A DNA stretch of 12,409 bases from Sphingomonadales bacterium (GTDB lineage: Bacteria; Pseudomonadota; Alphaproteobacteria; Sphingomonadales; Sphingomonadaceae): NCBI GenBank assembly GCA_017302775.1, contig JAFLDC010000036.1:1-12409 (forward strand), written 5' to 3'. A program made the position numbers and the translations under genes. The notes beneath the pieces are model-generated. The model saw nothing but the letters and a program-made list of their open reading frames with translations. It ran no database searches and was not told the DNA's origin. Of this stretch, positions 1-12,409 are shown piece by piece. Numbering within the stretch: position 1 is the first letter of the stretch; each line of letters starts with the position of its first letter.

Positions 1-53
1 GAGGCATGTCGATTTTCGACGATTTCGATTTCGTAAGGGCGTCGGGTCTTTGA
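1..53 (+). CDS. possible C-terminal end of a plus-strand gene
   Basis: Frame 3 of the plus strand is open from the left edge to a TGA at 51-53. It would encode a short acidic/aromatic tail, GMSIFDDFDFVRASGL. It would converge tail-to-tail with the dGTPase gene, whose stop codon begins 3 bases further on. Only 17 codons are visible, so this may be chance. There is no recognisable domain and no function can be given. Confidence 0.2.
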   Translation, partial: GMSIFDDFDFVRASGL

Positions 54-55
54 AG

Positions 56-1417
56 TCAGCGCACGATCGGATCGAGGACCAAGCCGCTCTCCGTACCCAT
101 CAGTCGATGATGGAGCTGATAAGCCTCATTTTCTGTTAGCGAGGCGACGCAATCGGCTGCGAGTCGGGCGCCTTTTTCATCGCCATTATCTTCCCAGATA
201 TACCGCAGCCGCGCGGGGAACAGGGCGAGGTTGCCCGCTTTGCCCTCCGAGAGAAAAATCTTGAAAAGCTCGCGGACGATTTTCTTCTGACCATACTGTT
301 GAGCATGCAGCGCGGGCAGTCCGATCACATAGTAGCGGGCGAAATATTTCAGCAGCCGAACCTCGTCGGCCGCGTCGTCTCGGATAATGACGGCGGCCGT
401 TCCGAGATCACTCACGAGCGACACGGCACGCACATAGTTTCCGATCAGCTGCGAGGTAAAGTTGCGAAGCTGCCGACGTTGTTCGCGGGCGCCGTTGTAA
501 ACTTCCTTGGTGACCGTCGGAAACATGACGAGCTTGCGAATGACGCGTTCCAACGCCTCCCTCATTCGGCGCGGCCCATCCGCGGGGTAGCTCGGATCCT
601 TCTTCCACGATTTGACGACGCCGTTGATGATCGTGTCCCGAGAATCCTCGGAAATGATTTCGCTCCACGGGATGATGCCGACGCGGTGGAAATCTTCCAG
701 ATCGTGCACAGAATAGGCAATGTCGTCCGCCCAATCCATCAGCTCGGCCTCGGCGGTTTTGAACTCTCCCGAACAATGCTCACGCGCCCATTTGAAGTCA
801 GCCTCCTCTGAGGCGTACGCTGACCATTTAGAGCGTTTCTTGTCGACGGAATGGTCGCGAAGCCAAGGATATTTCAGCGTTGCCGCGAGCGTCGCGCGCG
901 TGAGATCAAGACCAGGGTTGTCCTTGCTGTAGCGTACCGCCAACTTCGTGAGGATACGGAAAGTTTGCGCGTTGCCCTCATAGCCGTCTGGCGCCGCGTC
1001 CTCTTTATTAGCTTTCACGATTGTGGGGTCGCAAACGAGGCGATCGAGTTCCGTCTCCGCCGCGTGCCCAAAGGGCGGGTGGCCTAGGTCATGGGCGAGA
1101 CACGCCGCTTCCACCACCTCCGGGTGCAGGCCGTGCAGTCTAGCGGCTTCGGGCTGCTCAATTAGGCGGTGCTCCGCCAAGCGGCGCCCAACCTGCGCCA
1201 CTTTATATGTGTGTTGTTGTCGCGTGTGGAAGATATCCAGTTCGCCGGCGCGCACGATCTGCGTGATTCCCGCGAGACGATGAAACGCTGAGGAATAGAG
1301 AATCCGATCCCGGTCGCGCGCGAACTCATCCCGCTGGTCGAGACCAGAGGCGGTTGAGTCGCTATAGCATCGGCTTTTACGGGCCGCCTCTAACGACGAC
1401 TCTTCTTCACCCACCAC
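56..1417 (-). CDS. dgt: dGTPase-like deoxynucleoside triphosphate triphosphohydrolase (HD domain)
   Basis: Cytoplasmic enzyme of the Dgt/HD-domain family, which hydrolyses dGTP (and in many members other dNTPs) to the deoxynucleoside and tripolyphosphate. The 453-residue product has the expected order. An N-terminal RDRDRILYSSAFHRLAGITQ segment is followed by H69, then the HD signature ACLAHDLGHPPFGHAAE (H109-D110, with H113 and H118). The acidic motif MDWADDIAYSVHD follows near residues 227-239. H69, H109-D110 and D231/D232 are the likely metal ligands. The start is GTG at 1417, about 6 bases after a G-rich Shine-Dalgarno-like run. The gene follows a small DNA-binding-like protein by 20 bases, so the two are probably co-transcribed. 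The region appears lower in GC than the rimO-serS block, which hints at an accessory origin. Family assignment is firm; substrate and physiological role are not. Both nucleotide-pool control and phage defence are known roles of such enzymes. Confidence 0.9.
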   Translation of the reverse strand: MVGEEESSLEAARKSRCYSDSTASGLDQRDEFARDRDRILYSSAFHRLAGITQIVRAGELDIFHTRQQHTYKVAQVGRRLAEHRLIEQPEAARLHGLHPEVVEAACLAHDLGHPPFGHAAETELDRLVCDPTIVKANKEDAAPDGYEGNAQTFRILTKLAVRYSKDNPGLDLTRATLAATLKYPWLRDHSVDKKRSKWSAYASEEADFKWAREHCSGEFKTAEAELMDWADDIAYSVHDLEDFHRVGIIPWSEIISEDSRDTIINGVVKSWKKDPSYPADGPRRMREALERVIRKLVMFPTVTKEVYNGAREQRRQLRNFTSQLIGNYVRAVSLVSDLGTAAVIIRDDAADEVRLLKYFARYYVIGLPALHAQQYGQKKIVRELFKIFLSEGKAGNLALFPARLRYIWEDNGDEKGARLAADCVASLTENEAYQLHHRLMGTESGLVLDPIVR

Positions 1418-1437
1418 TCAAATCCCCCCAGGATGCG

Positions 1438-1653
1438 TCAGGCCGCGTTAGCGAATTCTCGCTTTACCGCGACCACCATGCCATCGCTGGCGAGGGAGAT
1501 TTTGCCGCGCTCGATAGCGCGCTGAAGGGCTTCAATAATGGCGCTCATCGGGTACTCGGCGCCCAGCAGCGTGTTGATCAGTTGCTGCGGGTCAATGCCA
1601 TTTTCGCCAATCGCGGCCAAGATTTCCGTGTCTTGCGGATCCTTATCTGCCAT
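1438..1653 (-). CDS. small protein with winged-helix-like pattern, upstream of dgt
   Basis: A 71-residue soluble protein beginning MADKDPQDTEILAAIGENG. The ATG at 1653 is preferred over one 15 codons upstream because a clear GGAGG (minus strand, bases 1660-1664) lies 6 bases before it. Two predicted helices (roughly residues 8-29 and 35-49, the latter around MSAIIEALQRAIERG) are followed by a hairpin-like KISLASDGMVVAVK. That order resembles a minimal winged-helix DNA-binding fold. This is inference from the pattern only; no family was recognised. The stop is 20 bases before the dgt start, so the protein is probably translated from the same mRNA and may regulate or accompany the dGTPase. Confidence 0.65.
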   Translation of the reverse strand: MADKDPQDTEILAAIGENGIDPQQLINTLLGAEYPMSAIIEALQRAIERGKISLASDGMVVAVKREFANAA

Positions 1654-2052
1654 GGTTAGCCTCCGAGTTACGGTTCCCCTGTCGTGCAAATTCGTCATTA
1701 ACTGATGAACGCATGACGGTGCGAGGTGCGTCGATTTTTACCGTCGCTAGGACACAACTCACCTGAAAACGTGCGTCTGTCAAATCGCGATCTCAGCGAG
1801 CTTTTCTGGAATATGCGGAAAAAGACGTTCTGAGCGTCGCTAAATAACGCCAAATTTCCAGCTAGCTCGGGCGCCAAAGATAATTTTTTGCCGCTGTGAA
1901 GGCCGTTTCCGGGCGCGCACGGCGGAGATTCGATGCCGCGGTCTACGTTTTCCAAATTGGCTCAGATTTTTTTGTTCATAAAAAGTCTAAAAATCGCGAT
2001 GCCGAAAATGGCGCCCCGAGGCGACAAAGGTTGGATCACTTCATTATCTGCA

Positions 2053-2382
2053 TCAGCGATGATTGCGGTTCGGAAAAGCGATAATCTGACCTTCACCTCG
2101 CGGCGAAACTTCACCGTCAGACGAAGCGAGCTTCAAAGTCACGACCTCCGCCGCATCGCGATCAAACCATCCCGGCGACAAACCGCAAAGCAGCTCGACA
2201 TCGGTTGCCGAGATCGTGAACTCGGTCGCTAGCAGGTCCGCTTTGCCCAAGACATAACCAGTGCAAAGCGACTGTTTTCCTACACCTGCCCCGCCTGCTA
2301 AACTCGCGCCCGCTCTTTCCCATCGTCGATCCCCGCGCGCGGCGCGGCCAATTTGCTCCGAAAACGGCAATGTGTCACCCAA
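2053..2382 (-). CDS. doubtful hypothetical protein, 109 residues
   Basis: An open minus-strand frame downstream of rimO in the same direction. Only the second half (from about residue 45, including VELLCGLSPGWFDRDAAEV) has amino-acid and codon use that looks coding. The first half is Arg/Gly/Ala-rich and contains a nucleotide-binding-loop look-alike, GGAGVGKQS. That lacks the Ser/Thr directly after Lys, and the protein is too short for a P-loop ATPase. No good ribosome-binding site precedes the ATG. It could be a small real gene with a later start, a remnant of a larger gene, or chance. No function assigned. Confidence 0.25.
   Translation of the reverse strand: MGDTLPFSEQIGRAARGDRRWERAGASLAGGAGVGKQSLCTGYVLGKADLLATEFTISATDVELLCGLSPGWFDRDAAEVVTLKLASSDGEVSPRGEGQIIAFPNRNHR
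2239..2270. repeat. perfect 8-bp inverted repeat with 16-base spacer
   Basis: CGCTTTGC at 2239-2246 and GCAAAGCG at 2263-2270 are exact reverse complements. On the plus strand the second arm is followed by ACTGTTTTCC, a weak T-stretch. It could form a hairpin or serve as a protein-binding site. The loop is too long and the T-run too poor for a confident intrinsic terminator. Confidence 0.4.
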
Positions 2383-2440
2383 ATTGCATGTAAACTATTG
2401 AAAAGAAAGAAGTAATGCAGGTTTACACTATGGCCGGATC

Positions 2441-2462
2441 TGTCAACCTGGTGTCAACTTGT
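2441..2462. repeat. two 11-bp tandem repeats just after the rimO stop
   Basis: TGTCAACCTGG (2441-2451) is followed immediately by TGTCAACTTGT (2452-2462), differing at two positions. A further partial copy, TGTCACCC, starts at 2460. The same TGTCACCC occurs at 2373-2380. The repeats lie between the rimO stop and the gene-poor spacer. On the minus strand each reads TTGACA, but no matching -10 box is found at normal spacing. Confidence 0.4.
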
Positions 2463-2473
2463 CACCCGGCTGT

Positions 2474-3859
2474 TCAGCTGTCCGCGATCACCCCGAACAG
2501 GTCGTGTGCGTCGGCATCCTCAACCCGTACCGGCACGATCTGGCCGGGCTGCAGGCCCTCTGGCACATCGCGCAGATATACCGCGCCGTCGATCTCGGGC
2601 GCGTCGGCCTGGCTGCGCCCGGTGGCGCCCCGGTCGCCGTCTTCGTCGGGCTCGCCCACTTCGTCGATGATCACCGGCAGGACGCGGCCGACCTTGGCCG
2701 CCAGTTTGGCGGCACTGATGGCCTCGGTCCTGGCCATGATCCGGGCAAAGCGTTCTTCCTTGACCTCCTCGGGCACCGGGTTGGGCAGGGCATTGGCCGC
2801 CGCGCCCTCAACCGGCTCGAACCGGAAGGCTCCGACCCGGTCAAGCTGGGCTTCGTCCAGCCAATCGAGCAGATATTGGAAATCAGCCTCGGTCTCTCCG
2901 GGGAAGCCGACCACGAAGCTGCTGCGGATCGTCAGATCGGGGCAGACGGCGCGCCAGGCCCTGATCCGTTCGAGCACCTTGGCCTCGTTCGCCGGGCGCT
3001 TCATCGCTTTCAGCACCGATGGCGCGGCGTGCTGGAACGGGATGTCGAGGTACGGCGTGACCAGCCCTTCGGCCATCAGCGGGATCACCGCATCGACATG
3101 GGGGTAGGGATAGACATAGTGCAGGCGCACCCAGGGCGGGGTGCCGTCGGCGGTGCGCAGATCGCCCAGTTCGCGCGCCAGATCGGTCATGTGGGTGCGG
3201 ACCGGCTGACCCTTCCACGCGCGTTCTTCATGCCGGACATCGACGCCATACGCGCTGGTGTCCTGGCTGATGACCAGCAGCTCGCGCGTGCCGGCGGCGA
3301 CCAGCTTCTCGGCCTCGCGCAGCACGGCGTCGATCCGGCGGCTGGCCAGTTTGCCGCGCAAGCTGGGAATGATGCAGAACGCGCAGGCATGATTGCAGCC
3401 CTCGCTGATCTTGAGGTAGCTGTAGTGGCGCGGGGTCAGCTTGACGTCGGCCAGCTCCTCGGTCCTTTGGGGAACCAGATCGATGAAGGGCCCTTGGGTG
3501 GGAGGGGCAGCCGCGTGCACCGCCTCGACCACGGCTTCGTACTGGTGCGCGCCGGTAATGGCGAGGACGGCGGGGAACTTGGCGCGGATCAGTTCGGCCT
3601 CATTGCCCATGCAGCCGGTGACGATCACCCGGCCGTTCTCGGCAATCGCCTCGCCAATCGCGGAGAGGCTCTCTTCCTTGGCGCTGTCCAGGAAGCCGCA
3701 GGTGTTGACCAGCACGACGTCGGCCCCGTCATAGTCGGGCGACATGGCATAGCCATCGGCCCTCAGCCGGGTGAGGATCCGCTCGCTGTCGACCAGGGCC
3801 TTGGGGCAGCCCAGGCTGACCATGCCGACGCGTTTTTGCTGGGGGATTACGGTTGCCAT
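2474..3859 (-). CDS. rimO: ribosomal protein S12 methylthiotransferase RimO
   Basis: Radical-SAM enzyme that adds a methylthio group to the conserved aspartate of ribosomal protein S12, using two iron-sulfur clusters and S-adenosylmethionine. The 461-residue length is typical. The N-terminal cluster-binding domain shows C18 (in [12 protein letters not shown]), C54 ([14 protein letters not shown]) and C83 ([10 protein letters not shown]). The radical-SAM motif is C155-x3-C159-x2-C162 in [27 protein letters not shown] and the SLGCPK form separate RimO from the tRNA-modifying MiaB. The C-terminal 75 or so residues fit a TRAM domain. The ATG at 3859 gives the expected N-terminus and a G-rich ribosome-binding stretch lies just upstream. 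The gene is divergent from a small membrane protein, with 61 bases between them. Confidence 0.96.
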
Positions 3860-3920
3860 TGCCGCGGCCCCTTACACCGCGTCGCCGCAAAGTGCTAGGG
3901 CAGTGGCAAGGAGGCCGGAT

Positions 3921-4265
3921 ATGGGCGTGATGGACGGGGTGGCGGTGCTGGCGGCGGCGGGTGCGGCCGCGGCGGTTCTGTGGCTGTTCTGGCGGGATCG
4001 GGGCCCGGTCTGGGCCTATGGCCTGACGCTTATCCCCGCGGCGATGCTGGGCCATGCATTGGCACGGATCGGGCCGGACAAGCTGGCGCTGAAGCCGTGG
4101 CTCTATTTCATGCAGTCCGGCGGATTGGCGCTGGCCTTTGTGCTGCCGGCGCTGTGGCTGCTGGGTTTGCGGGACGGAGCTGCGAAGGCGGCGATGACGC
4201 GGGACAGCGCGGCCTTTGTCCTGGCTTACCTGGCGATGGGCACGGTGTTCTGGATATGGGGTTGA
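3921..4265 (+). CDS. small integral membrane protein, four predicted helices
   Basis: A 114-residue protein of unknown function. The start at 3921 is set by AAGGAGG at 3908-3914, 6 bases upstream; the open frame continues further 5' but there overlaps rimO. Hydrophobic segments lie at about residues 5-24, 32-50, 62-85 and 95-113, joined by short loops with charged residues (WRDRGP, RIGPDK, LRDGAAKAAMTRD). The protein is therefore probably an inner-membrane four-helix protein with nearly no soluble part. It ends 9 bases before the convergent stop of the LysM/M23 gene. I do not recognise the family. The clear ribosome-binding site and strong topology pattern make the gene itself likely real. 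Confidence 0.75.
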   Translation: MGVMDGVAVLAAAGAAAAVLWLFWRDRGPVWAYGLTLIPAAMLGHALARIGPDKLALKPWLYFMQSGGLALAFVLPALWLLGLRDGAAKAAMTRDSAAFVLAYLAMGTVFWIWG

Positions 4266-4274
4266 CCCGCCAGG

Positions 4275-5126
4275 CTATTTCTTGGCCTTGGGCAGGTACT
4301 TGACCGGATCAAGCGCCACGCGGTTCCTGCGCACTTCAAAATGCAGTTGCGGCTCGGTCGCCATGCCGGTTTCGCCGACCAGGCCGACCCGCTCTCCGGC
4401 TTTGACCTCGTCCCCTTCCTTCACAGTGACTTTGGACAGGAAGGAATAGGTGGTGGTCCAGCGTCCGCCGTGGAAGACGATCACGGTCAGCCCATAGTCC
4501 TCTGGACCTTGTCCGGCGAAAATCACCTTGCCGGCTGCGCTGGCGCGCACGGCGGTGCCTTCCGGCGAAAGCAGGTCGATCCCTTCATGCGGGCCGTCCT
4601 TGGCCCCCGCCAGCAGGAACGGACGGCGCACCTTTCCGGTCAGCGGCCAGGCGAACTTGGGCGCCGGCGTGTCCGCCAGCGCCGGGACGGCGGCACCGGG
4701 TGAAGGGGCTGGCGTGGCGGGCTGCGCCACAGCCTTGGCCGCCACGGTCGGGATTGCGAGCTTTTGCCCGGACTTCACCGGATCATCGACTTTCAGGCCA
4801 TTGGCGGCCGCAATCGCCGACCACGGCACGCCATAGTCCATCGCGATGGAAAAGCCGGTTTCCCCGTCTTTCACCGTGTGGCTGCGGCGGCGCGGGATAA
4901 CCAGCTTCTGCCCGGCGCGCAGTGCATAAGGCGCCTTGAGCGCGTTCGCCTCGATAATCAGAACCCGGGGCACCTCAGCCCGATTGGCGATGCCGCCCAG
5001 CGTTTCGCCGGATTTGACGACGTGAACCGTTTCGGTCTTGGCATCGCTCGTTGCAGGCTCCTCTGCCCGCAGCGGTGCGGCGCCCAGGACGGACAGCATC
5101 AGGCCAAGGGCGGCAAACTGCTTCAT
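4275..5126 (-). CDS. LysM and M23/LytM-domain protein with degenerate active site (NlpD-like)
   Basis: An exported cell-wall protein of 283 residues. A signal peptide (residues 1-20, cleavage near PLRA|EE) lacks a lipobox cysteine, so it is not a lipoprotein, unlike E. coli NlpD. Two LysM peptidoglycan-binding modules follow at about 35-78 (VKSGETLGGIANRAEV) and 82-126 (HTVKDGETGFSIAMDYGV), then a Pro/Ala linker and an M23 domain at about 157-277. H180 and D184 (HEGID) of the zinc site are present. The histidine of the usual YxHL motif is Phe (F229, TYSFLS), and the first histidine of HxH is Gln (Q260, in PQLHFEVR). The domain is therefore probably catalytically dead and works as an amidase activator, as known for EnvC and NlpD. 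The ATG overlaps the surE stop by 4 bases (ATGA), so translation is coupled in the serS-surE operon. Confidence 0.88.
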   Translation of the reverse strand: MKQFAALGLMLSVLGAAPLRAEEPATSDAKTETVHVVKSGETLGGIANRAEVPRVLIIEANALKAPYALRAGQKLVIPRRRSHTVKDGETGFSIAMDYGVPWSAIAAANGLKVDDPVKSGQKLAIPTVAAKAVAQPATPAPSPGAAVPALADTPAPKFAWPLTGKVRRPFLLAGAKDGPHEGIDLLSPEGTAVRASAAGKVIFAGQGPEDYGLTVIVFHGGRWTTTYSFLSKVTVKEGDEVKAGERVGLVGETGMATEPQLHFEVRRNRVALDPVKYLPKAKK

Positions 5127-5887
5127 CCGCCGTACCGCCCGGCCAATTCCGCCAGCGAGGCATCGTGCGTCAGATCAAGCTGCAGCGGCGTCACCGAAAC
5201 ATATCCATCCTGAATGGCCTCCAGATCGGTTGCATGGCCGGGCGTATGCTCGATCCCATGCAAGCCGAACCAGAAATACCGATAGCCCCTTGGATCAGTG
5301 CCTTCAACCACTGATCCGCGTGCATAATCATGAAATCCCTGCCGAACCACGCGGATACCCTTAACTGCATCGGCGGCCACAGGCGGAAAATTGATGTTCA
5401 CCAGCGTCCGCGGCGCAAAGGGCAGTCCCAGCAACGGCTCGATCGCACGGGCAGCCCAGGCTTCTGCCGCGGTAAAGGGTACTTCATCCCCCATGCCTTC
5501 CCTGGAATAGACCTGGCTCAAAGCGATTGAGCGGATCCCGGCCAAAGCACCTTCGACCGCGGCGCTGACTGTGCCGGAATAGGTAACGTCGTCACCCAGG
5601 TTGGCGCCGCGATTGACCCCTGACAGGATCAGATCGGGCGCGGCCGGCATGACTTCGCGCAGCGCCATCATCACCGAATCCGTCGGTGTTCCTGACACGG
5701 CGAAGCGACGATCGTCAAACTGGCGCAGACGCACCGGACGGCTCAAGGTCAGCGAATGGCCCGCGCCGGACTGCTCTTCGGCCGGGGCAACAATCCAGAT
5801 ATCGTCCGAAAACTGCCCGGCGATCCTTTCCAGAACTGCAAGCCCGGGGGCGTGGATCCCATCGTCGTTGGTCAGCAGAATGCGCAT
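5123..5887 (-). CDS. surE: 5'/3'-nucleotidase SurE
   Basis: Metal-dependent cytoplasmic phosphatase acting on nucleoside monophosphates (and, in family members, short polyphosphate). It is linked to stationary-phase survival. I chose the ATG at 5887 (254 residues) because SurE proteins begin with this M-R-I-L-L-T-N-D-D-G sequence. A GTG at 5908 that overlaps the serS stop would add 7 residues and cannot be excluded. Metal and active-site residues are in place: D8 and D9 (TNDDGIHAPG), S40 (EEQSGAGHSLTL) and N92 (ILSGVNRGANLGDDVTYSGT). The length is normal. The gene sits 17 bases after serS and overlaps the LysM/M23 gene by 4 bases. The pcm gene often found next to surE is absent here. Confidence 0.95.
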   Translation of the reverse strand: MRILLTNDDGIHAPGLAVLERIAGQFSDDIWIVAPAEEQSGAGHSLTLSRPVRLRQFDDRRFAVSGTPTDSVMMALREVMPAAPDLILSGVNRGANLGDDVTYSGTVSAAVEGALAGIRSIALSQVYSREGMGDEVPFTAAEAWAARAIEPLLGLPFAPRTLVNINFPPVAADAVKGIRVVRQGFHDYARGSVVEGTDPRGYRYFWFGLHGIEHTPGHATDLEAIQDGYVSVTPLQLDLTHDASLAELAGRYGG

Positions 5888-5904
5888 CGGCCTATCTCGA
5901 TCTG

Positions 5905-7179
5905 TCACGGGACGAGACGATCAATCCCGCCCATATAGGGCCGCAGGGCCACGGGCACATCAACCGAGCCATCCTGTTGCTGGTAGTTTTCCAGTACCGC
6001 CACCAGCGTTCGCCCGACCGCAAGGCCAGACCCGTTCAGAGTGTGGACGAATTCCGTACCCTTCTGGCCCTCGGGACGATAGCGCGCATTCATTCGCCGC
6101 GCCTGGAATGAGCCGCAGTTGGAGCACGACGATATCTCGCGGTAGGTATTCTGTCCTGGCAGCCATACTTCCAGATCATAGGTTTTCTGGGCACCGAAGC
6201 CCATGTCGCCAGTGCAAAGCAATACCTTGCGGTACGGCAACTCCAGCGCTTGCAGGATTGATTCGGCACAGGCCGTCATCCGCTCATGCTCGGCGGCAGA
6301 GTCCTCTGGGCGCACCACGCTGACGAGCTCGCACTTTTCGAACTGGTGCTGGCGGATATAACCCCGGGTGTCCTTGCCGGCTGCACCCGCCTCGCTGCGG
6401 AAACAGAGCGTGAGTGCGGTCATCCGGAGCGGCAAGGCAGCGTCATCCAGGATTTGCCCCATGACCGAGCTGGTCAGGCTGACCTCGGACGTGGGAATGA
6501 GCCAGCGACCATCGGTGGTACGGAACGAATCCTCGGCAAACTTCGGCAATTTGTCAGTGCCGTACATCGCCTCGTCGCGGACCAGCACCGGGGTGCTGCA
6601 TTCGCTGTATCCATTCACGCCGGTCTGGTGATCGACCATGAACTGGCCGATCGCGCGCTGAAGCCGCGCCATCTGACCGCGCAGGAAGGTGAAGCGCGCG
6701 CCCGAAATCAGCGCGCCCGTTTCAAAATCGAGGCCAAGCGGCGGGCCAAGATCGGCGTGTTCCAGTGGAGTGAAGTCGAACGATCGGGGCGCGCCCCAGC
6801 GGCTGACTTCGACGTTATCGGCTTCACCCGCGCCTTCGGGCACATCCGCGCCCGGCAGATTGGGGATGATCGCCAGGGTATCGGTCAGGCGCTGGGTCAG
6901 ATCGCGCTCGTTCGTTTCCAGCGATGGTAGCGTATCCTTCAGGCTGGCGACTTCGCCCTTTAGTCGTTCGGCCTCCTCCTTGTCGCCGCGGCCTATGGCC
7001 GCGCCGATCAGCTTGGAGGCCTCGTTGCGCCGGTTCTGCGCCTCCTGCATTCGGGTTGCGATCTGCCGGCGTTCGGCATCGAGCGCCAGAATTGCGGCAG
7101 ATTGCGGTTCGAGCCCGCGCCGTGCCAAGCCGGCGTCGAATGCTGCGGGATTTTCGCGGATGAACTTGATATCGTGCAT
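5905..7179 (-). CDS. serS: seryl-tRNA synthetase
   Basis: Class II aminoacyl-tRNA synthetase that charges tRNA-Ser (and tRNA-Sec) with serine in the cytoplasm. The 424-residue product starts [18 protein letters not shown]. An N-terminal helical hairpin arm (about 1-110, charged Arg/Glu/Lys-rich) contacts the tRNA long variable arm. Class II motif 2 is in [20 protein letters not shown] and motif 3 is in [19 protein letters not shown]. The serine/ATP-site segment reads TSEVSLT where many homologues have TAEVPLT. The ATG at 7179 is chosen because it gives the canonical N-terminus; a longer in-frame extension to 7386 has non-coding-like composition. First gene of the serS-surE-LysM/M23 operon, divergent from the secreted protein gene with 93 bases between. 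Confidence 0.96.
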
Positions 7180-7272
7180 GGTAGCGGCGCTATGCCGGTT
7201 CGGCCGGAACGGTGCAAGGCCGGGACAACCCGCAAACTTCACTTGCAGGTAACCCACCACGCCTAATAGGTC

Positions 7273-8697
7273 ATGATGATGATCGCGAAACCTGCCTTGT
7301 TTGTGATTGCTGCCGTGGGTGGCATCGCCGCCGTCGGGCTGGCCTGGGCGCAAGGCGCACCCGCGCCGGCCAAGCTCGCGCCCCAACCGTCGGCGCCCGT
7401 TTCAGTGGTCGCGCCGCCGATCGCGTCGGGCAGCTATCCCTTCTACATGCCGATGCAGGGCCTGCGCCGCCCCGCTGCGCGGCTCTTCGTCAGGTGCGAG
7501 GCTTCCCGTCGCGCCGGGCAGGAAGTCTATGCTGCGCCTGGCAAGGATCCGCTGGGGGGGCGGGCCGAGGGCGGGTTTGAAATTGTGTTTGAGGCGACCG
7601 ATGCCGCCGGGCGGCCCTGTGTCTATCCCTTCTCGCCATGGATGCCGCAGATCGTCGGCTCGCTGCAGGGCACGCAGTTTATCCTGCGCTCATCGGTCCC
7701 AGGGCGGCGAGTGACGTTCCGGACCAACGATGCCTGGGCGAATATAAATTTGCGGCTGTTCGATTTTGGTCGCCAGCGTGTTCATTTCGAGATGAGCGAT
7801 ATCGAGTTCGACTTTCCCGGCTCCATTCAGCCCAAGGGTGTCGTTAACATCGAAGGGTTCGGCGGAGTGGCGCCCGGTCTGTTCAGCATCGTGATCCGGC
7901 GTTCAAAGATTTTCGGCGGTAAGAACGCCCTGTTCGTGCCAAGCGGGCAGACCATGCTCTATGTCGAGGATAGCGAATTCGCGGGCAATGTCGGGACCAA
8001 TGTCGATCAGGAACACACCAGCTATATCAACGGCGTTCTGGTATCGCACTTGCGCAATTCGGTCTGGTACGGTCAGCGGGCGGCCGGCAACCAGGCCAGC
8101 GGCCATCAGCTGAAGGACAAGGCATATCTTCGGATATATGAGGACGTTTCCGTTACCAATACGCCCAACGGCGGGCCGCCCTCGGCCATGCCGCTGCTGG
8201 ATCTTTCGGCCTTCGGTTTTACCTGGACCAACAACCTCAGGATGAAGCGGCTCCAGCCGGAACAGACGGTTCGCGATACGATGGTCGATCTGCGGACCGA
8301 GATTCTTTACGGCGATCCCAAGATCTATCCGTGGAACGTTCTGGCTGGCGGGAACTGGCGGATGCCCGCCGCGCCGCTTGCCGCACTCGATCAAGTGTAC
8401 CTGTCGGTATTCCACAATACTGTGGCGGATAGCTTTCGGATAGAGCCTTACGTGTTCTCGCTCCGGCCCCAGGGGTTGGGCTATGTCCCTGGCACCAACA
8501 CGGTAGCCGCCAACGACCGGTCCACGCCGTCACAGCAGCGCATGGTTTCGCTGGCATTTGGCACCCGGGGCCGGTTTGCGCGGGTCTACTCACACGAAGG
8601 CTGGACTTACGCCGATCCGCAACTGCCTGCCGGCGCCGAATGGGTCCACGATCGAGACGCATTTATCCGTCATGCGCTCAAGCTCACGGGGCGCTGA
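7273..8697 (+). CDS. secreted protein with right-handed beta-helix-like repeats, unknown function
   Basis: A 474-residue exported protein. A hydrophobic N-terminus (residues about 5-26, ending AWAQG) fits a Sec signal peptide. Three ATGs in a row (7273, 7276, 7279) make the exact start uncertain. The middle (about 130-330) alternates short hydrophobic beta-like stretches with Asn/Gly turns, for example [25 protein letters not shown] and [15 protein letters not shown]. That is the texture of a right-handed parallel beta-helix, as in pectate-lyase-like and adhesin-like proteins. No catalytic motif of a polysaccharide lyase was recognised. The C-terminus (about 370-474) looks like a separate globular part. 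It ends 13 bases before the tRNA-Val fragment and appears to belong to the ancestral chromosome rather than the element. Confidence 0.75.
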
Positions 8698-8710
8698 TGC
8701 TGCAAGGGAA

Positions 8711-8760
8711 TGGTGGGCGCGACAGGGATTGAACCTGTGACCCCACCCGTGTGAAGGGTG
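8711..8760 (-). tRNA. 3' fragment of tRNA-Val(CAC), attachment-site remnant
   Basis: Read on the minus strand, this is the second half of a tRNA. It has an anticodon stem CACCC/GGGTG (8756-8760 with 8744-8748) and a seven-base loop TTCACAC with anticodon CAC (8751-8753). A 5-base variable region and a TTCAATC T-loop closed by ACAGG/CCTGT follow. The acceptor strand CGCGCCC, discriminator A and encoded CCA (8711-8713) complete it. The matching 5' acceptor strand (GGGCGCG) and the D arm are missing from 8761 onward. It is therefore not a functional tRNA gene but the part shared between chromosome and element. The crossover probably lies in or near the anticodon arm. Confidence 0.85.
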
Positions 8761-8828
8761 GATCAGTCTGCTATCAGATGCCTTTCTCGTTACTGTTGTT
8801 CTTGCCATTCCGCCACTTAGCTAAGATA

Positions 8829-8856
8829 CGTGTTTTAGACGTTTTTAAGCGTTTCA
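8829..8856 (+). repeat. three phased CGTTTT-type repeats near the element end
   Basis: CGTGTTTTA (starting at 8829), CGTTTTTAA (8840) and CGTTTCA (8850) recur at 11- and 10-base intervals, about one helical turn each. They lie between the tRNA fragment and the integrase promoter, where arm-type sites for an integrase or Xis binding sites are expected. The function is inferred from position and phasing only. Confidence 0.35.
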
Positions 8857-8876
8857 CCGAGTTAATCCGGTTGCTG

Positions 8877-8949
8877 GTGGGGATTCAGTGGGGTGGAAAT
8901 CCCGACAGATTCATGGTATAATACTCTTATGCCCCACTGGATTCCCCAC
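8877..8949. repeat. 17-18-bp imperfect inverted repeat enclosing the integrase promoter
   Basis: The left arm GTGGGGATTCAGTGGGG (8877-8893) matches the reverse complement of the right arm CCCCACTGGATTCCCCAC (8932-8949) apart from one indel and one C/T change. A shorter third copy, AATCCCCAC, lies at 8973-8981. The arms sit exactly on either side of the predicted -35 and -10 boxes. They are good candidates for operator or arm-type recombinase-binding sites through which Int or Xis could control its own promoter. Confidence 0.6.
8894..8922 (+). promoter_or_regulatory. predicted integrase promoter
   Basis: A perfect -10 box, TATAAT, at 8917-8922 is preceded by an extended -10 TG (8914-8915). 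A weak -35, TGGAAA, lies at 8894-8899 with 17-base spacing. Transcription would start near 8929, giving a leader of about 70 bases before the integrase start at 9002. The promoter lies between the two arms of the inverted repeat, so binding there should repress it. Confidence 0.55.
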
Positions 8950-9001
8950 TAACGGAATCGCGGAATTCGGGCAATCCCCACACTGTATCGACGGAGGATG
9001 T

Positions 9002-10258
9002 ATGGCTGAGCAACGCCGCCCCAAGGGTCGCCCTGGGCGTTACGCAAAATTCGAGATTTTCGAGGCTTCGTTGCCCGATCAAATGACCAAGCGACCGCTC
9101 TATTTCGACGGCATCGGCTTTTTCAAAGGTGCCAATGGCTGCACCGTTTGGGTCAAGCTCAAGCTCCCTCGCGGGGGTATGTTCAAGGGGCGCAGTATCG
9201 CTCCCGGTGGAGCCGTGGAAATGAAGCTGGGCAAGCGGGCGTCTTGGCCGTGGCCTGAACTGATCGCCGAGCGTGATCGGCTGCAAGGGCTGGCGGATCG
9301 CGGCGAGCCGTTGGAGGAGGTCACGGTCCCGACCTTTGGCAAATATGCCGATGAGTGGTTGGAGCGAAAGAAGACCCAGCTGCGCAGCTTTGGAGTGACC
9401 AAGGGCAACGTCAATACTGCCCTCAAGCCGACGTTTGGCAGCAAGGCGCTGAACGCAATCACCGTTGCCGACCTGAACAAGTGGATCGGCAAGCAAAGCG
9501 CCAGTCTCAAGCCGTCCTCTGTCCAGCGGCAGCTCAACACCTTCAATTCGATCATGAACAGTGCGCTTAGCGAAGGCCTTATAAACGAAAATCCTTATGC
9601 AAAGGCCCACCGGGTCAAGGGGATTGAGGAGAGGCAACGCTTCATTACCGAAAGCGAATACAAGAAAATCCTGTCCACCGTCGATCGCATCGAACGAAAG
9701 CAGGAAAAGGAGAAGGACAGCAAACCGCACCAGCTTCGCGGCTGGCTCAAGCCCTATATCGAATGGGCCTATGAGTCAGGAATGCGCAGGGCCGAAATCC
9801 TGAATCTCACCTGGGCCAATATCCGGACGCTGGAGGGCCAAATGGCGAAAGTGGAGGTTCGCAACACGAAAACCTCCAATCCGCGTTACGTGACCTGCAC
9901 GGGCAAAATGGAGGCCATTCTAAAGACCTTGGCCGCATTGGACCGCGAAGAGGGCGACAACCGCCTGTTTCCCGTCTCCATGACCACCCTCAAACGCGCT
10001 CTGACCCGGCTTTGGAAGCAATGCGGTGTCGAAGACGTCAGGCTGCACGATCTGCGCCGCACTCACGCCACGCTTTTGATGGAGATGAACATTGATCCTC
10101 GCACGGTCGCTGGCCGTCTCGGTCACACTGGCACCGGAATGCTGGCGAAGCGATATGCCGTCAATCGCGGCGACGAATTCGCGGCAGGACTCTTTGGCCA
10201 GCGGAGTGCCGGAAAGGCAGAAAGTCCGGCAGCGGAGCCGGGTGAATCCGTCGGCTGA
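9002..10258 (+). CDS. tyrosine-recombinase integrase
   Basis: Site-specific recombinase of the phage-integrase family, 418 residues, expected to insert and excise the element at the tRNA-Val anticodon arm. The start at 9002 is chosen for GGAGG at 8993-8997 and because upstream in-frame sequence overlaps the promoter and repeats. N-terminal residues 1-105 (Arg/Lys-rich, then a beta-rich stretch TVWVKLKLPRG) probably form the arm-binding part. Residues about 110-200 form the helical core-binding domain (FGKYADEWLERKK onward). The catalytic domain has R262 (ESGMRRAEILNL), K290, H349 and R352 (LHDLRRTHAT), H375 (GRLGHTGTG) and the nucleophile Y385 (AKRYAV). The full set is present, so the protein is probably active. 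The gene points away from the att site, with the control region between. Confidence 0.93.
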   Translation: MAEQRRPKGRPGRYAKFEIFEASLPDQMTKRPLYFDGIGFFKGANGCTVWVKLKLPRGGMFKGRSIAPGGAVEMKLGKRASWPWPELIAERDRLQGLADRGEPLEEVTVPTFGKYADEWLERKKTQLRSFGVTKGNVNTALKPTFGSKALNAITVADLNKWIGKQSASLKPSSVQRQLNTFNSIMNSALSEGLINENPYAKAHRVKGIEERQRFITESEYKKILSTVDRIERKQEKEKDSKPHQLRGWLKPYIEWAYESGMRRAEILNLTWANIRTLEGQMAKVEVRNTKTSNPRYVTCTGKMEAILKTLAALDREEGDNRLFPVSMTTLKRALTRLWKQCGVEDVRLHDLRRTHATLLMEMNIDPRTVAGRLGHTGTGMLAKRYAVNRGDEFAAGLFGQRSAGKAESPAAEPGESVG

Positions 10259-10326
10259 TTGCATGGCTCCATCAGGGTCTATCACTGTGCCAAGCCGCTT
10301 GAATCGCTGATTTTAGCCGAATTTTC

Positions 10327-10358
10327 TTGACAAAACGGTCAAAGTGTGGTAGTTTAAT
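10327..10358 (+). promoter_or_regulatory. candidate promoter with inverted repeat for the Xis-like/polymerase genes
   Basis: TTGACA, a perfect -35 box, is at 10327-10332. TTTAAT at 10353-10358 is the best -10, but the 20-base spacing is longer than usual. An inverted repeat, TTGAC-6-GTCAA (10327-10342), covers the -35 box and could be an operator. Transcription would give a leader of roughly 115 bases before the start at 10484. Confidence 0.4.
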
Positions 10359-10423
10359 AATACAGCGCTAGAGTTTGTTCGCTTTCTTCCAGCCTGTGCC
10401 CACCCAAGCCCCGAGCGACCTGT

Positions 10424-10454
10424 CACTCGTTTGAAGCACCGCTTCGAGCGAGTG
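10424..10454 (+). promoter_or_regulatory. 14-bp hairpin in the leader of the Xis-like gene
   Basis: CACTCGTTTGAAGC (10424-10437), loop ACC, and GCTTCGAGCGAGTG (10441-10454) pair over 14 base pairs, two of them G-U. No T-run follows, so it is not an intrinsic terminator. GCGAG in its 3' arm (10448-10452) can instead pair with CTCGC (10461-10465) close to the ribosome-binding site. CGAG at 10412-10415 can pair with CTCG in its 5' arm. These mutually exclusive pairings suggest a regulatory leader, or a protein-binding palindrome at DNA level. Confidence 0.5.
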
Positions 10455-10483
10455 TCCTTGCTCGCAACGATAAGGAGAAGCTC

Positions 10484-10687
10484 ATGTCAATTGAGCCCGC
10501 ATTCTACACCGATAAAGATGTTGCCCGTCGTTTCAGTATGTCGCCGTCCTGGGTCCGTGGACAGCGGCACAAGCGCAAGACAGGGCAAGATCATGTCCTC
10601 ACCTTGAACCCAAGATTCATCGGTTCCTGCCCCCGCTACGTCCGCGCCGAGGTTGAGGCCCTTGTCGCACAGCTGATGGGGGAGTGA
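10484..10687 (+). CDS. AlpA/Xis-type helix-turn-helix DNA-binding protein
   Basis: A 67-residue basic protein. AAGGAG at 10472-10477 lies 6 bases before the ATG. The pattern FYTDKDVARRFSMSPSWVRG is the helix-turn-helix of the MerR-like/AlpA excisionase group. It is followed by a wing-like stretch and the closing RYVRAEVEALVAQL helix, where family members usually carry an R-Y/F-R-x-x-D/E-V/L-E sequence. Such proteins bend att DNA for excision or switch on element genes. Its place right after the integrase and overlapping the next gene fits a control role. Its TGA overlaps a possible GTG start of the polymerase-like gene (GTGA). Excisionase versus regulator cannot be told from sequence alone. 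Confidence 0.75.
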   Translation: MSIEPAFYTDKDVARRFSMSPSWVRGQRHKRKTGQDHVLTLNPRFIGSCPRYVRAEVEALVAQLMGE

Positions 10688-10692
10688 GGATC

Positions 10693-12186
10693 ATGATACT
10701 TTGGGAAGATATTGCCGCGTCGCTCGACATTGAGCCGACCAACGAGGCGCAAAGTCCAGCCGAGGCCGTGAGTCCAAGCCTGCACCCCCATGGTGATGAA
10801 AATCGGCCGGTCAAGGCATCAGCACCCGGTCGAGGAACCTTTTTTGATGAGCATATCGACTTGCGCGACCCCGAAGGGGGGCAGCTTGTGGAGCGGCTCA
10901 TTGAGGCCTTCGACACAGTGCGCCCCAAGAAGCGCAAGCGGCACCGTGAATTATTGAAAATCCGGCTTCGTAGGATCGCTGCGAATGCGCTGCGGGGGTA
11001 TTTCTACCGTGATCCCGCATCTATCCTATATTACAGTGCGTCGTCGAGCACGGCCTATGATGACAAGCCGAGTTTGATGAAGAACGGCTCGCTTCGCAAA
11101 GCCGTTGATGCACTGGCTGATGCCGGATTGGTCCGCAAAATCCCCGGGAAGAAGATGCCCCGCAACTCTGAGACGAGGTCTTGGACATCGTCATTCTGGG
11201 CGACCGATGAACTGGTCTGCATGGCTATGGAGTGCGGTGTTACGGCGCAATCAATAGAACGACAAATGCCGAGCGATGCGTTGGTCCAACTTTACGCTCC
11301 AAAGCCCAAGGCCAAATTCGAGTGGGCCAGTAAGGATTTGATCCGGCCCGCAAAGGGCAGGCGCATCCCGTTCAATCCGACTGCGGAGACTGAGGGTTGG
11401 GCTACCAGTTTGGCGGCGATCAATTCCGGCTATAGAGAAAGGAACATTGCGCTCGGCTTGTCGCCTGCCGAATTGGCATTGTGGTTGATCGAGTGTAACG
11501 CCAGCCGTGACCGGAAGGGCGGGCAATACCGCCTGCCGGAAACCTTCTCGACAGACCTCTATCGTGTGTTCAACGAAGGAATCGCAACCGACCCGAAGTT
11601 TGACATGGGCGGACGTATGTTTGGCGGCTGGTGGATGCAAATCCCCAGCGATTTGCGCAGTGCGATCACCATCGACGGTCAAACTACGGTGGAATTGGAC
11701 TATGCGAACTGCCACCCCCGAATGCTCTACGCCGAACGCGGATTGGATTGCGCAGGGGAGCTGTATGAGTTGCCCGAAATCACCGCGTATGAAGTGCAGT
11801 CAGGGTTGGAGCCTGGCACCTATCGTCCTTGCATCAAATGGCTGACGCAGGTGCTAATTAACGGAAAGCGACGTCCACAGGAGAAAGAGATGCCGGACGA
11901 TATTGACCTGCCTCCCGGCTTCACCGTGAAGGACATCGCTGCCTTTATCGAAGTGCGGCACCAGCCGATCGCCGATGCCTTCAAGACCGGGGCAGGATTG
12001 CGGCTGATGTGGCTTGAATCGCAAATTGCCTTGGAGATCGTGTCAACAGCGACAGCCGAGGGCTGGACGGTTCTTCCGGTCCATGATTCCTTTATCACTA
12101 CGACCGATCAGCAAGACCGATTGAAATCAATGATGATTGAATCTTATTCCCGTCGGTTCGGGATGGAGCCAATCATCAAACATTGA
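10693..12186 (+). CDS. polymerase-like protein of the Pol A/T7 RNA polymerase superfamily, with winged-helix-like N-terminal half
   Basis: A 497-residue protein counted from ATG 10693, which has a G-rich ribosome-binding stretch 8 bases upstream. A GTG at 10684 that overlaps the previous stop would add 3 residues. No standard name was recognised. Residues about 80-105 are a basic helix. Residues about 128-175 (SLRKAVDALADAGLVRKIPG) look like a winged helix of plasmid replication proteins. The C-terminal 200 residues carry three motifs in the order and spacing of the single-subunit polymerase palm. Motif A is VELDYANCHPRMLYA with D336. Motif B is R378-x3-K382-x7-N390-G391 (RPCIKWLTQVLING). Motif C is LPVHDSFIT with H464-D465. 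The helix before motif C (WLESQIALEIVSTA) also fits family A. D336 and D465 would bind the catalytic metals. The likely role, by inference, is replication of the element; template, primer and product type are unknown. Confidence 0.6.
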   Translation: MILWEDIAASLDIEPTNEAQSPAEAVSPSLHPHGDENRPVKASAPGRGTFFDEHIDLRDPEGGQLVERLIEAFDTVRPKKRKRHRELLKIRLRRIAANALRGYFYRDPASILYYSASSSTAYDDKPSLMKNGSLRKAVDALADAGLVRKIPGKKMPRNSETRSWTSSFWATDELVCMAMECGVTAQSIERQMPSDALVQLYAPKPKAKFEWASKDLIRPAKGRRIPFNPTAETEGWATSLAAINSGYRERNIALGLSPAELALWLIECNASRDRKGGQYRLPETFSTDLYRVFNEGIATDPKFDMGGRMFGGWWMQIPSDLRSAITIDGQTTVELDYANCHPRMLYAERGLDCAGELYELPEITAYEVQSGLEPGTYRPCIKWLTQVLINGKRRPQEKEMPDDIDLPPGFTVKDIAAFIEVRHQPIADAFKTGAGLRLMWLESQIALEIVSTATAEGWTVLPVHDSFITTTDQQDRLKSMMIESYSRRFGMEPIIKH

Positions 12187-12210
12187 TGAATAATGGAGGC
12201 GTTGAGGGAT

Positions 12211-12238
12211 AGTCTTAGGAAAACTGAATACCAAGACT
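12211..12238. repeat. hairpin after the polymerase-like gene
   Basis: AGTCTTAGG (12211-12219) can pair with CCAAGACT (12231-12238), six pairs plus two after a one-base bulge. A second short stem, GCCCC/GGGGC, lies at 12248-12265. Neither has a following T-run on either strand, so terminator function is only possible, not shown. They lie between two convergent genes. Confidence 0.3.
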
Positions 12239-12298
12239 CCCCCTCGCGCCCCATTTCTAAGGGGCCATAAGGACTCTCGATCAGACTCAGCGAGATGG

Positions 12299-12409
12299 TC
12301 ATGGTCTATCTGGAATGGACTTGCTGCTCGATTCATCATGAAGGGCTAGCGCAAATCCAAGGACTGCCCCCGCAACTGCGCCGATCAGTATTAAGCCGCG
12401 ATACTTGAG
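12299..12409 (-). CDS. C-terminal part of a small membrane protein, cut by the window edge
   Basis: The minus strand is open from the right edge to a TGA at 12299-12301, giving 36 residues. A basic LKYR segment comes first, then a hydrophobic helix of about 19 residues with small-residue pattern (LILIGAVAGAVLGFALAL). A polar tail ending HDESSSKSIPDRP follows. This reads like an N-in membrane anchor with a short outer tail, and the start codon may lie just past the window. Composition is convincing for a membrane segment, but the fragment is short. It would converge on the polymerase-like gene with 112 bases between. Function unknown. Confidence 0.4.
   Translation of the reverse strand, partial: LKYRGLILIGAVAGAVLGFALALHDESSSKSIPDRP

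Follow-up and report, generated by a model that had tools for sequence, protein, structure and literature searches.

We analyze a 12,409-nt stretch of DNA (hereafter, the window) from a Sphingomonadales bacterium (GCA_017302775.1, contig JAFLDC010000036.1, positions 1-12,409, forward strand), which contains the left end of an integrative element inserted in a tRNA-Val(CAC) gene. On the plus strand of the window, a host gene (7273-8697) and a partial tRNA gene are followed by an integrase gene (int), an excisionase-like gene (xis) and a polymerase gene (pol), the last of which occupies 10684..12186 if counted from GTG 10684, or 10693..12186 if counted from the ATG chosen in a first-pass annotation of the sequence. 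The pol product belongs to the superfamily of family A DNA polymerases and T7-like RNA polymerases, fits the TV-Pol family and is of one family with the phage proteins called divPolA2. Computation establishes its fold and catalytic residues, the operon in relatives, the attachment sites and the direct repeats; as for its role, we put at about 0.6 the probability that it is a TV-Pol-type primase-polymerase, third in an int-xis-pol operon, with which the element, once excised, begins to replicate.

The catalytic residues carry the assignment. From ATG 10693, the pol frame runs uninterrupted to a stop ending at 12186 (497 amino acids), and the residues named in the first-pass annotation are all in place: motif A at 11692..11730 (E334-L-D336-Y-x3-H341-P-x2-L-Y346), motif B at 11824..11865 (R378-x3-K382-x3-Q386-x3-N390-G391) and motif C at 12073..12093 (L461-P-V-H464-D465-S-F467), each on the plus strand. 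A database search returned 114 relatives, many of them metagenomic. In a first alignment of 67 rows, ten residues are invariant (G306, G307, R308, R322, D336, Y358, K382, L438, H464 and D465). The palm/fingers alignment used for all further counts has 189 rows, made up of 112 proteins including the query and 77 of 80 genome reading frames (three were dropped by length), with near-duplicates possible among them. G307, R308 and K382 are present in all 189 rows, D336 and Y358 in 188, R322, H464 and D465 in 187, and R378 in 184; near-invariance on this scale argues that the motif match is not due to chance, and D336, R378, K382, H464 and D465, which had been singled out for such an alignment, are far from freely variable. 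The exceptions at D336, H464 and D465 are L011_9674 (Gly and Glu in place of the two Asp), P0055 (residues 464-465 missing from the alignment) and P0049 (where H464 is replaced by Gln). The first of these is one half of a tandem pair of polymerase genes in a Pseudodesulfovibrio metagenome-assembled genome (L011:9674-12597), in which copy 1 has the altered motif A and C residues and copy 2 is intact; the dead and live polymerases may form a two-subunit enzyme.

The R-x3-K-x7-x-G spacing, which had been equated with that of E. coli Pol I and T7 RNA polymerase, is present, but the position of Tyr766/Tyr639 is Asn in 177 rows and never Tyr, and conservation of G391 is weak (Gly in 81 rows). The lead-in upstream of motif A, which had looked conserved, contains the G307, R308 and R322 counted above; this GGR308...R322 segment (11608..11658, plus strand) is similar to the corresponding segment of DNA polymerase I, TGR...QNIP...R, and in a low-confidence hhalign alignment GR308 and D336 pair with PolA residues, with R322 one residue off a PolA Arg. 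Motif C is paired by hhalign with the IHDSF of T7 RNA polymerase (E 7.7e-5, 49 columns, probability 62%).

The fold agrees with the motifs. An AlphaFold2 model of the window protein is confident (pLDDT 91), and its best matches among solved structures in the PDB are family A (Klenow-type) DNA polymerases and the mitochondrial and T7 RNA polymerases; this fold search, together with the near-invariant catalytic residues, supports the palm/fingers identity first read from the motifs. With the Klenow-type core of DNA polymerase I the protein shares the palm/fingers fold and the order and spacing of GR, D, RxxxK and HD, but the exonucleases are gone, the thumb is short and E710-F762-Y766 are not kept. 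One further fold match, in BFVD, is the DNA replication protein of Zamilon virus (E 5.1e-4), a virophage like Sputnik. By sequence, the Pfam family RNA_pol (PF00940) is reached by 7 of 67 members at E <= 1 (best 8.9e-4), and the window protein (P0001) itself matches no Pfam family at that threshold. This is in line with the earlier view that exonuclease domains are absent and most of the thumb is missing, as the thumb amounts to two helices in the model. We assign it to residues 231-270 (11383..11502, plus strand; helices 231-249 and 258-270), from the secondary structure of the model and by analogy with PMC2579912. Upstream, residues ~82-187 (10936..11253, plus strand) look like a winged helix, which is a weak match; the N-terminal part is unmatched to that of the T7-like and mitochondrial RNA polymerases. 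R308 sits in a model strand (306-310), and the only helices modelled from the GGR motif to motif A are 313-315 and 319-322, neither longer than four residues. We take this segment to be the same region as the shortened last thumb helix described in PMC7581432 and PMC10061031, where the shortening is said to make room for the first triphosphate and is tied to de novo initiation.

TV-Pols were named by Iyer and colleagues in 2008 as mobile-element polymerases of this superfamily, some of them beside a lambda-type integrase, and were proposed to be primase-polymerases (PMC2579912). The idea of such a family is therefore not new: a compact family A-type enzyme on an integrase-Xis element, which the first-pass annotation had called an unusual system, is indeed what we find, but it is of a kind already known. 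We judged the fit by the features given in the text of PMC2579912, so that the members named in 2008 are compared by description only. As described there, TV-Pols are minimal polymerase cores of the superfamily (400-600 amino acids) whose palm has two catalytic Asp (here D336 and D465), whose beta-hairpin has an absolutely conserved Arg (here R308), and whose fingers combine an acidic residue with RxxxK (here R378 and K382, with Asp in 135 and Glu in 32 of the 189 rows at position 356, which is Glu in the window protein). Like the window protein in its model, they have a two-helix antiparallel thumb and no nuclease domain; they reside on mobile elements with an integrase or resolvase, in hosts that include Loktanella and Methylobacterium, both also represented among our loci. 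Two features in that description differ: the TV-Pol N-terminal domain (TV-PolN) was predicted to be all-helical whereas that of the window protein models as a winged helix, and a D5 helicase is fused to, or encoded near, some TV-Pols, whereas we noticed no such helicase here.

The residues by which polymerases of this superfamily choose their nucleotides set the family apart. In T7 RNA polymerase, Y639 and H784 select ribose. We placed the equivalences by motif spacing: D336+5 is H341, which corresponds to the steric gate (Pol I E710, T7 G542); R378+8 is Q386, which corresponds to Pol I F762 and T7 M635; and N390 corresponds to Pol I Y766 and T7 Y639. E710 and F762 discriminate against ribonucleotides, as stated in PMC7581432. 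Thirty PolA rows, picked without reference to the motifs, served as a control: 28 read E, F and Y at these positions, and the other two, which also deviate at R754/K758 and H881, are probably in a wrong reading frame. T7-like RNA polymerases read G, M and Y, together with H784, each in 9 of 9. Across our 189 rows, position 341 is His in 158, Gln in 8, Phe in 7, Asn in 6 and another residue in 10, never Glu or Gly; position 386 is Gln in 101, Asn in 42, Leu in 32, Met in 5, Phe in 2 and another residue in 7; and position 390, apart from its predominant Asn, is Phe in 5, Ala in 3, Gly in 2, and Ser and Gln in one each. On this reading of the alignment, the family signature H - Q/N/L - N is that of neither the DNA polymerase class (E-F-Y, here 0, 2 and 0 of 189) nor the T7-like RNA polymerase class (G-M-Y, here 0, 5 and 0 of 189). 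We found no report of it in the open-licence PMC literature, a search that left out figures and supplements, including the motif alignment of PMC11348598.

These counts bear on the possibility that the protein is a single-subunit RNA polymerase, which would read promoters through its N-terminal winged helix and either transcribe the element genes or synthesise RNA primers. The likeness to T7 and mitochondrial RNA polymerases in fold and motif C would suit it, but the family lacks the residues that select ribose: Asn mostly takes the place of Y639, and the position matched to T7 H784 and Pol I Q849 is Met in 115, Gln in 72 and Phe in 2 rows, of which Gln is the PolA state (28 of 30 control rows). 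The element also has few genes to transcribe, and a sigma-70-like sequence precedes int, although such sites are no commoner than chance. We consider an RNA polymerase role unlikely. Somewhat less doubtful, though still tentative, is a third class of the superfamily, in which the winged helix would read an origin, the H - Q/N/L - N site would start strands de novo with a mixed or unusual nucleotide preference, and a three-gene core would excise and copy the element without a helicase or single-stranded DNA-binding protein of its own.

The same family occurs in phages, since the divPolA2 proteins belong to it: the window protein matches phrog_4756 at E 1.5e-31, as do all 67 members scanned at E <= 0.1, and BFVD matches include the 'DNA polymerase' of Rheinheimera phage Barba31A (E 5.1e-20). 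Relatives were found in 22 phage records; among the 20 matches listed, identity is 22-27% and 19 records exceed 100 kb. In two Aeromonas phages the direct neighbours of the relative are hypothetical proteins. According to PMC11348598, divPolA2 is the form found in barbaviruses and other Caudoviricetes, with a palm lacking an exonuclease, an N-terminal domain left unassigned there and a resemblance to both DNA and RNA polymerases, much as here, and a role in repair or as an RNA polymerase is asked about; it is described there as a phage gene in variable places, and integrative elements go unmentioned in the part of that source available to us.

In cellular genomes, 103 family loci were confirmed and 80 kept; by record title they are mostly alphaproteobacterial, with gammaproteobacteria, Desulfovibrio-type bacteria and one Lentisphaeria metagenome-assembled genome. 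Of 396 genomes in the order of the relative G001, 27 have a family member, five of them close (E below 1e-70). A scan of four mechanically called open reading frames on each side of the 80 loci, some of which are cut by contig ends, found a tyrosine recombinase cluster at 30, a serine resolvase cluster at 12 and either at 38; Pfam confirmed three representatives of the former cluster and one of the latter. Any other neighbour cluster is present in at most 4 loci, and int, xis and pol were all recognised together only in L001-L003 (Sphingobium). In L048, L056, L058 and L061, three of them Desulfovibrio-type, the gene immediately after pol is one they have in common (~272 amino acids), which in L048 (1855-2670) has no Pfam match. 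A Thioclava plasmid carries a shorter relative, adjoining IS21 genes.

The window shows one end of the element at its insertion site. This left end, attL (8710..8760, minus strand), consists of the 3' portion of a tRNA-Val(CAC) gene, identical at 47 of 51 positions to the intact tRNA-Val(CAC) of L117. The relative G288 has a 51-bp direct repeat, and attL matches each of its two copies without mismatch; the right end lies outside the window, which stops before any cargo. The DNA of the neighbouring host gene (7273-8697, 474 amino acids, no Pfam match at E <= 1) is recognisable in nine of the 396 genomes of the order. In the two of these whose match reaches the tRNA, L168 (77% identical) and L169 (74%), an intact tRNA-Val(CAC) comes after the host gene, and the match to the window ends at 8760, as at an uninterrupted site. 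Both ends were mapped in three relatives: G288 (~11.1 kb, exact 51-bp direct repeat, the far copy being the 3' part of an intact tRNA-Val(CAC)), G071 (~13.9 kb, exact 54-bp direct repeat at tRNA-Gly(GCC)) and G285 (~11.7 kb, 49-bp direct repeat, 98%, without a tRNA called by ARAGORN). In G002 an intact tRNA-Val(CAC) lies beyond the cargo and the integrase is cut by the contig end, a tRNA-Val 3' part precedes int in G001, and no element end was found in G003.

The integrase is a tyrosine recombinase (9002..10258, plus strand; PF00589 E 1.1e-20, phrog_1 integrase E 3.6e-53) with an HDLRRT motif. Its frame is already open from GTG 8888, but we prefer ATG 9002, which is the likelier start because the homologues in L114, L118 and L119 have their first start codons at about that point (those of L115 and L116 are further upstream). 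Around an extended -10-like sequence, at 8876..8950, are paired 7-bp repeats (GGTGGGG, AGTGGGG; CCCCACT, CCCCACT), and 5 of 6 relatives have a similar layout upstream of int: G001 (one arm imperfect), G003, G071, G288 and, with three of the four copies, G285, while G002 is cut there. The TATAAT hexamer ends at 8922, and one promoter-like site was found versus 1.5 expected by chance. The repeats are possible arm-type integrase sites or autoregulatory sites, and their layout suggests that integrase or Xis both binds the attL arms and regulates int. The 67-amino-acid xis product (10484..10687, plus strand) owes its name, which we infer, to its position and to a weak similarity (E 0.016) to phrog_66, annotated as excisionase and transcriptional regulator.

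Homologues of xis adjoin pol upstream in all six relatives examined. The genes int, xis and pol are together in the window and in G001, G002, G003, G071 and G288, whereas in G285 xis and pol are together and the integrase is at the far end; there (L115:9739-18001), xis-pol is separated from the integrase by type III restriction and GmrSD-type genes, and the others have int-xis-pol and then cargo. GTG 10684, nine bases 5' of ATG 10693, gives pol a four-base overlap with the xis stop. As judged by first-start calls, the overlap is also four bases in L114, L116 and L117, 1 base in L115 and 58 bases in L118, with a gap of 6 in L119. Since the four-base overlap recurs in three relatives, GTG 10684 may be the true pol start, three codons earlier, and, given the overlap with the xis stop, translation of xis and pol may be coupled.

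Beyond the int-xis-pol core, gene content varies, and the cargo is defence-like in 4 of the 5 elements scanned for it: Vsr and a cytosine methylase in G288, a type IIG enzyme in G071, GmrSD, a type III methylase and a weaker match to type III restriction in G285, and GmrSD with a PD-Lambda-4 protein in G003. In the last (Sphingobium sufflavum, L118:2528-6379), the PD-Lambda-4 gene (PADLOC, 1161 bits) adjoins the GmrSD gene downstream of pol. In G002 (Sphingobium xanthum, L117:1528-7539), a 2003-amino-acid protein beside the intact tRNA-Val end has an HTH_upst_double_PIN segment as its only Pfam match and no PADLOC match; several cargo genes in the scanned elements have no Pfam match. Such cargo raises the question of whether pol is itself defence cargo, not a replication module, an option also raised for the PolA-SSB primases (PMC10061031). 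However, pol stays beside xis while the cargo varies, and it has no PADLOC match, which makes this the least probable of the alternatives considered here.

For the preferred reading, that of a primase-polymerase, we envisage that Int and Xis would excise the element as a circle, that the winged-helix-like N-terminal domain would help the polymerase to find or hold the template, and that the polymerase domain would start a strand de novo and then extend it. The resulting extra-chromosomal copy could re-insert or spread. Since the scan of element genes turned up no replicative helicase, the host's would be borrowed past initiation, and host enzymes would finish. A precedent is CCPol-MP, which primes DNA de novo in vitro, CCPol being included in the proposed TV-Pol group (PMC7581432). 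By the accounts in PMC7581432 and PMC10061031, the CCPol-MP-Cch2 system of SCC elements and the PolA-SSB primases likewise place a family A core with a shortened helix before motif A on a mobile element. CCPol differs in keeping the equivalents of E710 and F762, where the 189 rows have Glu in none and Phe in 2, and in being accompanied by genes for an OB-fold partner and a helicase, neither of which we recognised in the element genes scanned.

Alternatively, the protein could be a second-strand or gap-filling DNA polymerase that converts incoming single-stranded element DNA or tidies recombination intermediates. No conserved helicase cluster adjoins pol, as would suit such an enzyme. Host Pol I can already fill gaps, though, and the short helices before motif A together with the DNA-binding-like N-terminal domain suggest initiation instead. 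A second-strand role has been proposed for the related PolA-SSB primases (PMC10061031), and barbaviruses with divPolA2 are each reported to encode a regular PolB as well (PMC11348598). We regard a second-strand or gap-filling role as improbable here.

Several observations weigh against a primase-polymerase of the element. There is no recombinase cluster of either kind within four open reading frames at 42 of the 80 loci, and one of the 189 rows lacks the motif A Asp and has an altered motif C Asp. The link to PolA by sequence profiles is barely made (hhalign probability 0.5-3%), and a sequence search of the PDB gave no chain below E 0.1. No published activity for the subfamily was found and no replication origin was identified. 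Unlike CCPol-MP-Cch2, pol has no recognised OB-fold partner or replicative helicase gene beside it, its neighbours being xis upstream and no widely shared gene downstream (small proteins were not folded, and cargo was scanned in part).

The window protein fits a kind of polymerase already known as TV-Pol; the present analysis adds an active-site signature that our search did not find in print and the mapped ends of elements. The findings also tie the unexplained divPolA2 genes of phages to integrative elements with defence genes. As set out in the text of PMC2579912, TV-Pols were proposed to lie near the minimal core ancestral to DNA polymerase I and T7 RNA polymerase and to both prime and polymerise; by 2020, CCPol was the sole characterised TV-Pol to the knowledge of the authors of PMC7581432. 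CCPol retains the nucleotide-choice residues of DNA polymerases, whereas the branch of the window protein does not. Because this branch is widespread, compact and present in elements with mapped ends, it makes ancestral nucleotide choice and de novo initiation directly testable.
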